A stretch of DNA of 64,000 nucleotides from Verrucomicrobiota bacterium (lineage in GTDB: Bacteria; Verrucomicrobiota; Verrucomicrobiia; Verrucomicrobiales; DEV007). The DNA lies in NCBI GenBank assembly GCA_020630975.1, contig JAHDID010000008.1:20823-84822 (forward strand). Reading direction: 5' to 3'. Every line of letters begins with the position of its first letter. The first letter of the stretch is position 1. A model generated the notes under the pieces. It was not told where the DNA came from. It did no database searches and saw only the letters and a list, made by a program, of their open reading frames with translations. This document shows, in pieces, positions 4,115-40,912 of the stretch. A program made the translations under genes and the position numbers.

Positions 4115-6526
4115 TTGAACCGCTTTTTCGCCAGACTGCTCCTCGTGCTGCCACTGTCACTGATGGCTGTGGCACACGCCAGTGTGGTCGATGAGCCGCG
4201 ATTTCAGGCTGGTAGTCGAGCCTTTCAGCAGGGGGACTACGTGACGGCAGCAGCCGAGTTTCTCGCTACCTGGTCGACACTACCACCCGACGCGACCTTC
4301 CAAAAATCGGTAGTCGCCTCGCGCCTACTCGAAGCCTGGTATCGCAGCGGCAACTACAAAGCTGCCGTGGTCTGGTATCGCGTGATCTGGCATCCCTCTC
4401 TAACAGATGATCTAGCCTACAATCGCCCCATCCAGCGCTGGGCCGCACTAGCCATGCTGGAGACCCGCGAATATGCAGAGTGTGCTGACATTTTCGCCAA
4501 GCTAAGCGAGCAATCGCAGCTCCCACCAAAAGAGAAGCGCTCGTTGTCAACCTATCGAGCTCACGCCCTGTTTCGCGAAGGTAAGTCCGAGCAGGCTTAC
4601 CGACAGATCTTTCCCGACTACGAAGTGCCGACCGATGCCAAAGAGGCATACTTCTACGCAGGCATCTGCTATGAGACAGAGCGCTGGCCCGAGGCCGAGA
4701 GCTACTGCAGACAGGCACTGGAGCTACCACCTCCTGCAGAAGACGAGGTCTTCCCCTTACGGGTATCCCTACTACAGGCACGCAGCCTAGCAAAGGCTGG
4801 CTACGCTGGTGAGGCTATCACCGCACTCATAGAGCTGATCGAGGAACGACACCACATCTTAACCATATACCCGGCATTCGATAGCATTATGCAAATGATC
4901 ACACTCGACGAGCGAGACCGAGTGGTGGCAAAATTCGATAAATGGGCGCACGATCCAATATCCCCAAATAGACAGCTCGCAGCTAAATACTATAGCATCC
5001 TGCTGATTCCCAGCCCTGATGAGTCGACTATGGTCGATAGATTGGAAAATTTTATCCTCGAAAACCGCGAGCACGCCCTAGCAAAGGAGGCTCAACTAAT
5101 GCTCAGTTCGATCAACCCCGAGCTCGCCGCAAAATACACTCACAACATACCCGAGCACGAGATTGATGAACTAACTGAAAGACTAATTTTTGAGAACGCC
5201 GTGAAGTTATTTCAGAATGAATCTTTTGAAACAGCAAAACAATCATTCCTTGAAATATCAACACGACTCCAGGGTAAAAAACGGGAACAAGCCCTCTTCA
5301 ACTCGGCTATCGCCGCTCTTTATGATGGAGACCAGACCACCTTCGACCGGCTAGAACGTGAAATCAGTCGCGACGATCAAGCAACCTCCGCTATCCATGC
5401 CGAACTGCTTTTCCTAGCCGGCCTATTCCACGCCTCCAAAGCCGATCCCCGCGCCTTTGCCCTACTGACCGATTTTTGCCAAGCCTACCCCGAACACTCC
5501 TCAAATAACGATGCCCGGCTAGCCTTGGCCGAACTACACCTCAATCAAGTGCCGGCCCAGACAGAGTCGGCCAAACAGATACTCCAGCAGCTGCGCAGCG
5601 AAGCCCTGTCGCCACAGCGTCGCGAACGACTGGACTACATACTGATCTGGGTAGAACTGCTGACACCAGGCTTTTCGCAGATCCGTGAGTCCGTGTATGA
5701 CTTTCTCGAGAGATGGCCCTCCTCCAATCTCCGCCCAGAGGTAACGATGCTACTGGCTACAGATCTCTATCGCTCTGGTGACTATGGTCATGCGGCTATT
5801 GCCTTCGCCGAGATCGTCGAGCACTACCCAGACTCCAGCTATCGAGATGCAGCGCTCTATTTCTCTGCCGAGGCAGAGGAAAGACAGGAGATCGAGATGG
5901 ATCGAATCAACCCTCGGCAAGACTACTGGGGACCGATACTAGAAAATGCAGGTAGCTTCACCGAATACGCTCGACACAGGCAAGCACTCAGCCTACTGCG
6001 GGTAGATCGATTCGATGAAGCCATCCGGATATTCGAACAAATCGCCAAAGCCGACATACCCCAGACCGAGCTCAAACTAGCGGCACAATGTGACAAAGCC
6101 TATGCCCTCTATATGAAAGGCCTAGCATTCGGCAATGACGCCCGCAGCCTACAGGCCGCAGCAGAGGCCTTTGCCGCTATCGAAAGCAACGCCACCGCCA
6201 GCCAGGCCTGGCGCTACCAGGCTGCAGTCCGTAGGGGTAAGTGTCTCGAGCTACTCGGCCTACGCGGCCAGGCTTTAGATATCTATCAAAAACTCACCAC
6301 CGAAGCCATCGCCAACCAAACCTCTATCAGCACCAGCGCACCGATCCAAGAAAGCCAATGGCTATATCGAGCCGGATTTTCTGCGATCGAAATGCTCGAA
6401 GCCAATAAAGACTGGAAGGGCGCTGTCTCCCTAGCCGAAGCTCTAGCAGACCAGGGTGGCCCTAGAGCTGTAGAGGCCGCACAGCGTGCTGAGGCACTAC
6501 GCCTGCGCTACTTCATTTGGGACTGA
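4115..6526 (+). CDS. Secreted TPR-repeat protein
   Basis: The frame is open from inside nadA, but TTG 4115 is the likely start: it lies 11 bp after the nadA stop and produces a clear signal peptide (MNRFFARLLLVLPLSLMAVAHA). The ~780-residue mature protein is a series of helical tetratricopeptide-like repeats, for example GDYVTAAAEFLATW, SGDYGHAAIAFAEIVEHYPDS and RFDEAIRIFEQIA, resembling the tol-pal/YbgF and BamD type of periplasmic TPR scaffold. No catalytic motif is visible. It probably works as a periplasmic protein-interaction scaffold and is likely co-transcribed with nadA. Its last 30 bp overlap the convergent histidine kinase gene. Confidence 0.8.
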   Translation: MNRFFARLLLVLPLSLMAVAHASVVDEPRFQAGSRAFQQGDYVTAAAEFLATWSTLPPDATFQKSVVASRLLEAWYRSGNYKAAVVWYRVIWHPSLTDDLAYNRPIQRWAALAMLETREYAECADIFAKLSEQSQLPPKEKRSLSTYRAHALFREGKSEQAYRQIFPDYEVPTDAKEAYFYAGICYETERWPEAESYCRQALELPPPAEDEVFPLRVSLLQARSLAKAGYAGEAITALIELIEERHHILTIYPAFDSIMQMITLDERDRVVAKFDKWAHDPISPNRQLAAKYYSILLIPSPDESTMVDRLENFILENREHALAKEAQLMLSSINPELAAKYTHNIPEHEIDELTERLIFENAVKLFQNESFETAKQSFLEISTRLQGKKREQALFNSAIAALYDGDQTTFDRLEREISRDDQATSAIHAELLFLAGLFHASKADPRAFALLTDFCQAYPEHSSNNDARLALAELHLNQVPAQTESAKQILQQLRSEALSPQRRERLDYILIWVELLTPGFSQIRESVYDFLERWPSSNLRPEVTMLLATDLYRSGDYGHAAIAFAEIVEHYPDSSYRDAALYFSAEAEERQEIEMDRINPRQDYWGPILENAGSFTEYARHRQALSLLRVDRFDEAIRIFEQIAKADIPQTELKLAAQCDKAYALYMKGLAFGNDARSLQAAAEAFAAIESNATASQAWRYQAAVRRGKCLELLGLRGQALDIYQKLTTEAIANQTSISTSAPIQESQWLYRAGFSAIEMLEANKDWKGAVSLAEALADQGGPRAVEAAQRAEALRLRYFIWD

Positions 6527-8482
6527 TGCCTGCGCCTTTCGCCCACTCTGTATTTGGGTAAATTCAGCTAGCATCCCCTCGATCTCGCCAGTCGTGAATG
6601 GCTTACTCAGTATCGCTGTGAAACCCGCCTCTTGGAAACGGCATAGACTATTCTGATCAGTATATCCAGAGCAGACTACCGCGTGCACATTGGGATCTAT
6701 CTCTTTGATCGTCGCTACAGCTTCCTCACCTCCCATACCGCCTGGTATCGTCAGATCTAGGATCACGATATCGAAAGGATCGCCATCGGCGACTGCGGTC
6801 TCTACCTGACCGATCGCCTCCACACCATCCTCTACCTGAACCACTCGCTGATCCAGTTTGGATAGTATCCGGCTAGCGACGATACGGATCGGCGCCTGAT
6901 CATCCATGATTAAGATTCGATTGCTCGCCACCTTTTCACTGATCACTTCTAGCGGCACATCGTGATGCGCCTGATCTTTAGTAGCCGGCAGCCAGATAGA
7001 AAAAGTCGTCCCGACTCCGAGCGTGCTCTCCACCGCCATTCTTCCATGGTGACGCTCCGCTATCGAGTGGCAGGTAGCTAGACCTAGTCCAGAGCCCTCC
7101 GCCTTGGTCGTGAAGTAGGGGTCCCAAATCTTTTTCAATACTTCGGAGGAAATACCAGGCCCATCATCTCGGATGTCGATACGCACATAGCGACCATCAT
7201 CCAGATACTTATCATTATCGACTTCGACATTGGTCACATCCACATCGATCCGACCATGCCCACCTAGCGCCTGTCTGGCATTCACGCATAGGTTATTGAT
7301 GATCTGGCTGATCTGCCCTTTATCGAAATCTGCCCGCCATAGCTCTGAGGGAGCTTTGACCTCCCAAGCGATGTCAGAACCACTGAGTGAAAACTTAACG
7401 GCATCCATCACCACAGGCTCGACCTCCTCGACTCTAGTCACAGGGTCTCCCCCCTTCGAAAAGGTCAGCAACTGCCGAGTCAACTGACGCGCGGCTTCAC
7501 AGGCCGTCTCTGCATCCTTCAGAGCTTCCTCGCACATCTCGGGATTATCCAGTCCCACAGAAATGTTGCCTAAAATACTCGCCAAATAGTTATTAAAATC
7601 GTGAGCGATACCACCGGCGAGATGCCCTACCGAATCGAGACGCTGCAGACGCTCTGCCTGACTACGGTGGTATAGATCTTCGGTGATATTTTGAAAAATA
7701 AGCAGCCATCTGGCCCGATGATTGTTCGGGTGAGGCAGATAGGACACCGCACAGCGATAGACTGAGTCCTTGTAGTCGTAAGTGATCGCCTCGTCGATAG
7801 GCACCTTGCCATCCAATATGGCTCGGATCTCGCCCACCCTGTCGCCAAAAATCGACTCCAGAGGCACACCCTCTTCTGAAAATCCGCACCTACCCTCGCA
7901 GGGCAGATCCATACCATCGGCCACTATCACTGAGCTATCCTGGCGCAGCAAAACCGCGCCACCCGATGGCAGATTCGCGATCAAGCTACTGAATAATCGG
8001 TCTCGGTAGTTGAGCGAGCTATTCTTTTCCTCGAGCTTCTCGACATAACGCCGCACATCAGCTGCTGTCTGCTCATGCGCATTGATGATCAGGAAGTACT
8101 CGGCAATATCCGACGTTTTAGGAAAGTCCGAAAACTTCAGCCCTAGTTCATTCAGCTCACTGGATGAACGAGCTGTCGGACTGCACAGTAAATAGTAACC
8201 AGGCGAGCCACACTCATGTCGCTCGGTTTTTAGTAGCTCGCCCTTCAGAGTGAGCGCTCGATTCTTACTCTCGAGTAGCAAGAACTGGTCCAACAGCCTC
8301 TCGGGCTCCCACTCGGTCACAGAATGAGGATTGACGATACGCAACTGATCCAGCACGGGCGACCCCACCTCCAGATCCAGCAGCTTGCGCATACCTGCGC
8401 CAGCTGCCCGCACTCGTCCATCAGAGTCCGTCTCGACTCGAAATGGGAATAGGGAATCACACTGTGCTTCGCTTAACTTCAT
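6497..8482 (-). CDS. HNOBA-domain hybrid histidine kinase (H-NOX partner)
   Basis: The 661-residue soluble kinase has the following order. Residues 10-135 resemble HNOBA, the H-NOX-associated PAS-like domain of soluble guanylate cyclases (LFPFRVETDSDGRV, GYYLLCSP, GLKFSDFP). Residues 140-160 are a coiled-coil linker and about 165-270 a PAS domain. HisKA has the H-box GIAHDFNN with His294. HATPase_c has an N-box near NNLCVNARQAL and the G1/G2 motifs DDGPGIS and GSGLGLA. A C-terminal receiver domain has phospho-acceptor Asp576 (VILDLTIPGG). It begins at the base next to the H-NOX stop codon, so the two are almost certainly co-translated. HNOBA normally contacts H-NOX, so the kinase should respond to NO bound by that protein. 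No separate regulator is adjacent; output may run through the fused receiver. Confidence 0.9.
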   Translation of the reverse strand: MKLSEAQCDSLFPFRVETDSDGRVRAAGAGMRKLLDLEVGSPVLDQLRIVNPHSVTEWEPERLLDQFLLLESKNRALTLKGELLKTERHECGSPGYYLLCSPTARSSSELNELGLKFSDFPKTSDIAEYFLIINAHEQTAADVRRYVEKLEEKNSSLNYRDRLFSSLIANLPSGGAVLLRQDSSVIVADGMDLPCEGRCGFSEEGVPLESIFGDRVGEIRAILDGKVPIDEAITYDYKDSVYRCAVSYLPHPNNHRARWLLIFQNITEDLYHRSQAERLQRLDSVGHLAGGIAHDFNNYLASILGNISVGLDNPEMCEEALKDAETACEAARQLTRQLLTFSKGGDPVTRVEEVEPVVMDAVKFSLSGSDIAWEVKAPSELWRADFDKGQISQIINNLCVNARQALGGHGRIDVDVTNVEVDNDKYLDDGRYVRIDIRDDGPGISSEVLKKIWDPYFTTKAEGSGLGLATCHSIAERHHGRMAVESTLGVGTTFSIWLPATKDQAHHDVPLEVISEKVASNRILIMDDQAPIRIVASRILSKLDQRVVQVEDGVEAIGQVETAVADGDPFDIVILDLTIPGGMGGEEAVATIKEIDPNVHAVVCSGYTDQNSLCRFQEAGFTAILSKPFTTGEIEGMLAEFTQIQSGRKAQASVPNEVAQA

Positions 8483-38212: not shown

Positions 38213-39235
38213 TCACTGCGCAGCCTGCCACTCACTCGGCGGCAGTTGCTGATTGCGCAGCACTTGGTCGATGCGAGGGAAAGAGCGGCTCATCTTCTGA
38301 TCTGGCGGCGCTAGCTGATTGATCTGTAGGGTCCACTCCTGACCACGACAGTCTCTAAGCGTCATCAGATGGTCGCCTCGTCTAATAAATCGGGCAAAAA
38401 TATAGCGCCCCTCACTGTTGTGCCATTTGCGGTAGCCCTGATTGATCAGCGATGCCTTCTGCTGCTCGATATCGGCGAGAATCGGTGCGCAGGCGGCCTT
38501 CAGCTCGTTGAAATAATCGACGGGGCGATCCTTCTTGTAGCCACGCATCGAGCGCTGCACCTCGCCATGCGGATTAAAAATCAGAATCGACGGGTAACCC
38601 GCCACCTTGAACTCCTTCTTCACCCAGCGTTTGGCCTCGCCCGCTTCGGTGATGTTGCGCGGGTAGGTCATGTAGCAGATCACCAGATTCTCCTTCACAT
38701 ATTCATTGAAGCTGCGCGAGGAAAACACCTGCTCGGATAGCTGCATCGCCTCGGGAGCCCAGACTGCGGTGAAAAGCAGCATCATTGGGCGCATCTCGCG
38801 CTGGGCACGGGCGAAAGCGTAGCGCGGATTGGTCTCCCACCAGGCAGACTGTGGATCGTCGGGGTAGACGAGCGCCTTTTGATCGGGGTTTTTCTCCTTT
38901 TTATCGACTAGCGAGGATCGACCGATCTGTCGACCGATGCTCTTACCATTGCCCAAGTCCTCCTCGCTAGACTCGGGAAATTCCACGATATTTACCTCGC
39001 CTAGCTTGGGCCTATCCTGCTGGCCCTGAGGCGGCAGCATCCCCTGACTGCGAGCGACCTGATAGGGCAACGGAGCCCCGGGCTGGCTCAGATCGATCAT
39101 CTGCGGTTTGTCATTGGAGACAGGCATCGGCCCAAAACGAGCCGCAGCAGCCGCATCGTCGCTACTCTCCTGAGCACACAGCCACATAGCTGTGCTCAGA
39201 GATAGTAGAAGGGAGATGTGTGTCAGGCGGACCAT
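38213..39235 (-). CDS. Secreted thioredoxin-fold protein without CxxC plus SHD1-like domain
   Basis: The 340-residue product has a signal peptide (HISLLLSLSTAMWLCAQ). A thioredoxin-like domain spans about residues 135-240 (RPMMLLFTAVWAPEAMQLSE, then VAGYPSILIFNPHGEV with the cis-Pro region), but the usual WCxxC position reads WAPEAM, so it has no redox cysteines. The C terminus (RKWHNSEGRYIFARFIRRGD, then LRDCRGQEWTLQINQL) matches the SHD1-like domain often fused to secreted proteins in Planctomycetota and Verrucomicrobiota. It likely binds client proteins or acts as a chaperone-like partner of the downstream HtrA. Confidence 0.75.
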   Translation of the reverse strand: MVRLTHISLLLSLSTAMWLCAQESSDDAAAAARFGPMPVSNDKPQMIDLSQPGAPLPYQVARSQGMLPPQGQQDRPKLGEVNIVEFPESSEEDLGNGKSIGRQIGRSSLVDKKEKNPDQKALVYPDDPQSAWWETNPRYAFARAQREMRPMMLLFTAVWAPEAMQLSEQVFSSRSFNEYVKENLVICYMTYPRNITEAGEAKRWVKKEFKVAGYPSILIFNPHGEVQRSMRGYKKDRPVDYFNELKAACAPILADIEQQKASLINQGYRKWHNSEGRYIFARFIRRGDHLMTLRDCRGQEWTLQINQLAPPDQKMSRSFPRIDQVLRNQQLPPSEWQAAQ

Positions 39236-40399: not shown

Positions 40400-40912
40400 A
40401 TGAGGTACTCCCTACTCGCTCTCTCCAGCCTCCTACTCGCCTCGTGCGGCGCGCCCGACGATATCGAGTACAATGACGACGGCGTGGTGAAAGCGCAGAA
40501 AGTCGGGACTCAACTGATCCAAACCCAGCTGCATCGCCACAATGGCCGAAACTTTTCCCCCGTGCAGATCCATCAAGAGCCACGCTACTACATACTCTAC
40601 TACTCTGCCTCGTGGTGAGGCCCCTGCCGCGTGAGTGCTCCACAGGTGGTGGACCTATATCAGCGCTATGTCGCGAGCAATCCCCGAGTCGAGATGGTAC
40701 ATATATCTCTCGATAAAGATAATCTAGCTGCCTCGCGCTGGGCGAGTAGTAGCAGATTTCCCTGGCTGACCGTGCTCCCCGAGAATGTGAAAGCCAGTGG
40801 ACTCGAGCGCTATCGCAATGGCAAATTCGTCCCCGACTACACCCTGCTCAGCTACGATGGTAAGAAACTAGGCAGCGGCCAAGGGGTATTCCAGCAGGCT
40901 GGAAAGCTATGA
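40400..40912 (+). CDS. Thioredoxin-like lipoprotein with TGA (selenocysteine) in WxGPC active site
   Basis: Read through the TGA at 40616-40618, the frame gives a 170-residue protein. It has a lipoprotein signal (MRYSLLALSSLLLASC, lipobox Cys at 16), then a TlpA/nucleoredoxin-like thioredoxin domain with YYILYYSASW, the TGA as residue 73, then GPCRVSAPQVVDLYQ, VEMVHISLDKDN and RFPWLTVLPEN. The TGA stands exactly where the first catalytic Cys of WCGPC belongs; Cys76 remains. Frame and homology are continuous across it. A SECIS-like hairpin begins 10 nt after the TGA. Sec in the thioredoxin active site is known in other selenoproteins. Function would be periplasmic thiol-disulfide or peroxide reduction. 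A nonsense mutation (TGC or TGT to TGA) is the alternative; without selABCD in view this stays an inference. Confidence 0.8.
40629..40666 (+). promoter_or_regulatory. Candidate bacterial SECIS hairpin after the TGA
   Basis: Counting the first base after TGA as +1, an outer stem pairs GCGTGA (+11 to +16) with TCAGCGC (+42 to +48, one bulged G). An apical stem pairs TCCAC (+21 to +25) with GTGGA (+31 to +35), with loop AGGTG. Bacterial SECIS loops lie about 16-37 nt after the UGA and carry a G in the first two loop positions; both conditions hold. The pairing was made by eye. Confidence 0.6.

Follow-up and report, generated by a model that had tools for sequence, protein, structure and literature searches.

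The window analysed in this study, a stretch of 64,000 nucleotides from a Verrucomicrobiota genome, carries on its forward strand a gene (40400-40912) that starts with ATG at 40400, ends with a final TGA stop at 40910-40912 and encodes 170 residues in a single frame, interrupted solely by a TGA at 40616-40618. The first-pass annotation had described two open reading frames (40400-40618 and 40631-40912) as one protein split by this TGA, and direct reading bears this out. With the codon read as selenocysteine (Sec, residue 73), the GGC CCC TGC that follows gives the motif W-U-G-P-C in the context ILYYSASW-U-GPCRVSAPQ, placing Sec in the first position of a UxxC motif (U73-G-P-C76) and Cys76 (TGC, 40625-40627), which is invariant in 45 aligned relatives, in the resolving position. 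A 33-base pattern spanning the TGA site had a single match in the window, and 100 shuffles gave none. Upstream of the motif, a predicted lipoprotein signal peptide was read from the sequence (MRYSLLALSSLLLASC, 40400-40447), with a lipobox L-A-S-C at residues 13-16 (40436-40447); by inspection, LLLASC (residues 11-16) matches the lipoprotein pattern [LVI][ASTVI][GAS]C. Downstream lies a putative bacterial Sec insertion hairpin (bSECIS, 40638-40654), and residues 32-170 (40493-40909) form a thioredoxin-like domain (PF13905) that includes the Pro145 codon (40832-40834). No promoter or terminator consensus was found near the gene. A neighbouring gene on the reverse strand (38213-39235), divergent from the Sec gene and free of in-frame TGA, encodes a protein whose Thioredoxin_7 domain scores 28.3 bits against a cut-off of 27.

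The domain assignment was supported by Pfam, by an AlphaFold2 model (mean pLDDT 89.5, pTM 0.80) and by fold matches. The best Pfam match was PF13905 (Thioredoxin_8), which at 42.5 bits against a cut-off of 27 fitted better than PF00085, while no NCBIfam model reached its cut-off for the window's protein, with the ResA model (NF002854) scoring 25.1 bits against 170 and the thioredoxin model (TIGR01068) 26.9 bits against 96.8. The nearest solved structures were a nematode thioredoxin and tryparedoxins (Z 12.7-14.9), followed by StoA/ResA-type proteins (Z of approximately 11-12). Tryparedoxins and nucleoredoxins (3s9f, 1o81) are the closest solved relatives by both profile and fold and carry a WCPPC/WCGPC-type site; however, they are eukaryotic Cys proteins of roughly 20% identity that have neither Sec nor a signal peptide nor a lipobox. 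The ResA, StoA and TlpA proteins share the membrane-tethered, outward-facing thioredoxin fold with a CxxC site, but carry Cys in place of Sec, and the window's protein falls far below their NCBIfam cut-offs. Selenoprotein thioredoxins of the UxxC type (PF00085) likewise place Sec first in UGPC, but belong to the small thioredoxin family, whereas the window's protein starts with a signal peptide and matches PF13905 more closely. Residues Y67, S71, W72, U73, P75, C76, Q82, S103, P145 and Y147 were invariant in alignment A2; by analogy with the thioredoxin fold, Pro145 is presumably the cis-proline facing the active site.

Taken together, the product is best explained as an exported, lipid-anchored selenoprotein thiol-disulfide oxidoreductase with a tryparedoxin/ResA fold. 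As judged from the signal sequence, the signal peptide would direct export across the inner membrane, and lipidation of the lipobox Cys16 would tether the thioredoxin-fold domain in the envelope. The first-pass annotation had called the protein a lipoprotein; the sole basis of that call is the lipobox, which is common to several relatives. Starts resembling the window's lipobox occur at seven related loci (L093, L099, L107, L110, L127, L130 and L134). The relatives as a whole include several such short lipobox proteins, while the majority carry an additional N-terminal region and a signal peptide that looks cleavable. This region, which in many relatives reads ARTWTS...LSEAD, has a likeness to an SHD1-type domain, but it had no Pfam match and is given no name here.

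Once in the envelope, Sec73 would attack oxidised substrates such as disulfides, and the selenosulfide would be resolved by Cys76. A reductase or isomerase role is moderately favoured, in which the protein would be re-reduced through a DsbD-type partner, both the direction of electron flow and the partner being predictions; the source genome encodes one DsbD_TM protein. A true selenoprotein acting instead as an oxidant, a peroxidase or a selenium- or metal-handling protein is less probable, at something like one chance in four. Glutathione peroxidases did appear in the fold search (Z 10.6-11.7) and the search for a conserved neighbour gene pointed to no substrate, as no gene neighbour was found to be common to the window and the other Sec loci and no neighbour family besides the Sec gene itself was present in more than 11 loci, mostly of Roseibacillus type. 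The glutathione peroxidases, however, ranked lower than the top sequence and fold matches (tryparedoxins, ResA and StoA), which are thiol-disulfide oxidoreductases, and the UxxC motif with its resolving Cys and the invariant Pro145 also argue for the reductase or isomerase role.

The status of the TGA was addressed through homologues, found by protein similarity alone in a search against 384 Verrucomicrobiae genomes. A further 12 genomes of the order, several with two or three copies, contained homologues with exactly one in-frame TGA, and in each of these homologues the TGA falls at the same residue, in agreement with the earlier proposal that it occupies the position of the first catalytic Cys of WxGPC. 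All 13 TGA-form genomes, the source genome included, encode selA and a tRNA-Sec above cut-off (13/13 for each). Across the order, the TGA form was present in 13 of 14 selA-positive genomes vs. 0 of approximately 60 selA-negative genomes (Fisher p of about 1e-13, with species that are not independent). Beyond these 13 genomes, in the rest of the class and phylum, the homologues listed have open frames, apart from two with TAG and one with TGA in genus g2, where none of the 10 selA-negative genomes tested had a tRNA-Sec above cut-off. Cys occupies the Sec position in those open-frame or selA-negative relatives whose sequences were read, including Akkermansia-like ones. Residue 73 thus corresponds to TGA in genomes that encode selA and to Cys in those selA-negative relatives that were read, as expected of bacterial selenoproteins, in which the redox-site UGA has Cys counterparts among homologues. 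The search found nothing closely related to the window's protein, the best match being approximately 46% identical. One further genome of the same order (G292) has selA and tRNA-Sec without the Sec form, and gave a weak open-frame match only.

The machinery for Sec incorporation was complete in the source genome (7.1 Mb in 158 contigs), where all four of selA, selB, selC and selD were located. The tRNA-Sec scored 58.6 bits, above the Rfam cut-off, and was also called by ARAGORN as tRNA-SeC with anticodon TCA; SelA scored 522 bits, SelB 272.6 bits (296.5 with its C-terminal piece) and SelD 301 bits, the last as part of a longer, 763-residue frame (L048) whose N-terminal portion resembles NAD(P)/FAD oxidoreductases. 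The same genome encodes a formate dehydrogenase alpha subunit (FdhA) with one TGA in the context NCSRA-U-HAPTVAGLA, which is taken here to be the canonical FdhA Sec site (SRAUHAP). FdhA is thus likely a second selenoprotein of the source genome, indicating that Sec is used elsewhere in it.

The hairpin downstream of the TGA reads TCCAC-AGGTG-GTGGA (40639-40653) in the window, with five base pairs (40639-40643 with 40649-40653) and a loop AGGTG at 40644-40648, that is, +26 to +30 after the TGA, as the first-pass annotation had described it. Published bSECIS rules specify a loop of 3-9 nt, a stem of at least 4 bp and a distance of 16-37 nt from the UGA, with a G at loop position 1 or 2 and a G or U after it (PMC13188914). 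The window's hairpin, with its 5-nt loop, G at position 2, 25-nt spacing and 5 bp, conforms to these rules. Folding was less decisive than position and loop. Against the bSECIS energy limit of -7.5 kcal/mol, the region from +1 to +48 gave -14.8 and the family median was -8.9, but the window's hairpin taken alone, at -5.9 to -6.6, misses the limit, and the window sequence alone folded no better than shuffles (z = +0.48). The case for the hairpin therefore rests on comparison among relatives.

This comparison used an alignment of 70 distinct sequences (A1), in which the stem extends up to 6 bp within 40638-40654. For the six-pair stem, 91% of cells were paired, vs. 85.7% in shuffles and 30-61% in controls with the pairing slid along the alignment. 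Double-sided changes in the stem numbered 21 cells vs. 3.7 in shuffles, in columns drawn from related sequences, and included the compensatory replacements CCAC/GTGG to CCGC/GCGG, TCCAC/GTGGA to TTCAC/GTGAA and, at the fifth pair from the loop, T-A to G-C. Loops across the family read AGUUR, AGGUU, AGUUU or AGGUG. Local folds recovered the central hairpin pair in 69 of the 70 sequences, the one exception being a divergent paralogue, which forms a six-pair hairpin of its own slightly displaced from that position. RNAalifold retained the inner three pairs only, so the six-pair stem rests on the cell-pairing count in A1. No Rfam family matched the hairpin region.

Codon choice and selection within the gene point in the same direction. 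The Leu codon within the hairpin was TTR in 62 of 62 cases, compared with 13% elsewhere in the same genes, and the Val-11 codon was GTG in 69 of 69, compared with 25% elsewhere in the same genes; since the sequences are related, binomial values for these biases do not represent independent trials. The pattern used in the motif scan described below fixed the Pro and Gln codons along with some of the loop, but neither the Leu choice nor the third base of Val; the signal at the Gln and Pro codons and part of that at the Ala codon, being forced by the pattern or linked, was set aside. Among 27 pairs of relatives, the median dN/dS was 0.07 downstream of the TGA vs. 0.28 upstream, and none of the pairs listed showed synonymous changes in the six hairpin codons.

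To capture the recurrence of the site more widely, the pattern TGGTGA-NNN-CCN-TGY-...-YCRCAG-NTN-G was scanned over the genomes of 84,980 species. In total, 74 stretches matched, of which 68 were real homologues by translation, whereas an almost identical but marginally stricter pattern, in which motif and hairpin stood one base further apart, gave no match in a genome-wide scan and serves as a control for spacing. All but one of the real matches came from Verrucomicrobiota (Roseibacillus, Rubritalea, Persicirhabdus, Akkermansiaceae and other Verrucomicrobiales); the exception, from a record titled 'Bacterium' (L079), groups with verrucomicrobial sequences in the tree. The remaining six stretches, from two Streptomyces, a Parabacteroides, an actinomycete and two Rhodobacteraceae-type genomes, showed no homology on translation and were discarded as chance matches. 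Overall, the TGA recurs at the redox residue in about 75 distinct homologues, and the TGA gene with the same RNA insertion signal is found in dozens of related marine and sediment bacteria, including the cultured strains Rubritalea marina, Rubritalea profundi, Roseibacillus persicicus, Roseibacillus ishigakijimensis and Persicirhabdus sediminis.

From these findings, the TGA at 40616-40618 is read as recoded to Sec, with the locus encoding a selenoprotein at an estimated probability of about 0.94, as judged from sequence comparison. SelB, acting on the hairpin 25 nt downstream, would deliver Sec-tRNA(Sec) to the UGA and yield the W-Sec-G-P-C site. No reading other than recoding by SelB accounts at once for the TGA, the hairpin, the correlation with the Sec machinery and the Cys relatives. 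Readthrough of the UGA, whether regulated or at a low level, with insertion of a normal amino acid such as Trp to give a short lipopeptide alongside the full-length protein, would produce the same open frame and is inseparable from recoding on DNA alone, but it predicts neither a TGA at the redox residue, nor a hairpin obeying the SECIS rules, nor Cys in the relatives read that lack the Sec genes, and is considered very improbable. A pseudogene, in which nonsense mutation or a sequencing error has placed a stop at the redox position of an otherwise ordinary thioredoxin-like lipoprotein with WCGPC, is equally improbable here and is already refuted for the family, which does show nonsense elsewhere (a TGA for Trp next to the site in the selA-negative genome G157) but carries this same TGA in about 75 homologues, tracking selA and tRNA-Sec, with the hairpin conserved and the downstream frame under strong purifying selection among relatives. 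The argument of the first-pass annotation that a nonsense mutation at precisely this residue would be an unlikely coincidence is accordingly upheld, the site pattern being absent from shuffles and the TGA, hairpin and downstream frame being conserved in homologues. The change in G157, a g2 genome without selA, lies in a paralogue (L066) in which TGG has become TGA at the Trp before CGPC, and is apparently an ordinary nonsense mutation.

Those checks proposed in the first-pass annotation that were run all favoured its reading. The earlier proposal of a probable new selenoprotein is therefore supported as to the selenoprotein but only partly as to its being new, because a PF13905 UxxC selenoprotein family has been on record since the 2005 Sargasso Sea survey, in which four fragments were described as 'thiol-disulfide isomerase-like' (Zhang et al. 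2005, PMC1088965), and it also appears in later lists (PMC9312934, PMC13188914). That family shares with the window's protein both the Pfam domain and the UxxC motif with Sec first; by the published naming rule of domain plus motif, the window's protein thus belongs to the PF13905 UxxC kind. Domain and motif are also the extent of the comparison, as the part of the survey considered gives the Sargasso fragments without a description of host or export, and the window's protein may or may not belong to the same branch as that family (MAK15852.1), the two having been compared by description only. What appears to be novel is a verrucomicrobial, exported and repeatedly duplicated branch that is present in cultured strains; no report of this protein in Verrucomicrobia was found in the openly available literature searched. 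A stronger proposal, held tentatively and at slightly under even odds, is that these proteins form a family, distinct from those catalogued, of envelope-exported, tryparedoxin-like Sec oxidoreductases, with several copies per genome in free-living Verrucomicrobiales, that has reverted to Cys in gut Akkermansia-like lineages upon loss of the Sec machinery. In the core tree, the Akkermansia-like Cys forms nest among the Sec forms, on a long branch with weak support, while the window's protein groups with another short lipobox form (L110; support 98/92).

As no NCBIfam model covers the protein, these genes are probably annotated in many genomes as two broken frames or as a truncated lipoprotein. 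Once recognised, they bring a recurrent envelope selenoprotein to a group that has seen little selenoprotein work in the literature searched. With Sec homologues present in cultured strains, both selenium incorporation and envelope function are directly testable, and the Sec/Cys split between these genomes and the Akkermansia-like ones offers a natural system in which to study when selenium is abandoned.

Several individual loci show further variation. In the Akkermansia-like genomes (L031-L042), the motif of the Cys form is immediately followed by one more Cys, giving WCGPCC. Sec copies occur in tandem or clustered at four loci (L051, at 4932-4982 and 7206-8387; L121; L127; L134), and the copy at 4931 in L051 carries a membrane segment at its C-terminus as well as a six-pair hairpin of another sequence (GACACC/GGTGTC), spaced almost identically from the TGA. 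In Roseibacillus persicicus (L056, 5880-6599 and 6799-6892), the tRNA-Sec gene lies approximately 200 bp upstream of, and divergent from, a Sec homologue of the window's protein.
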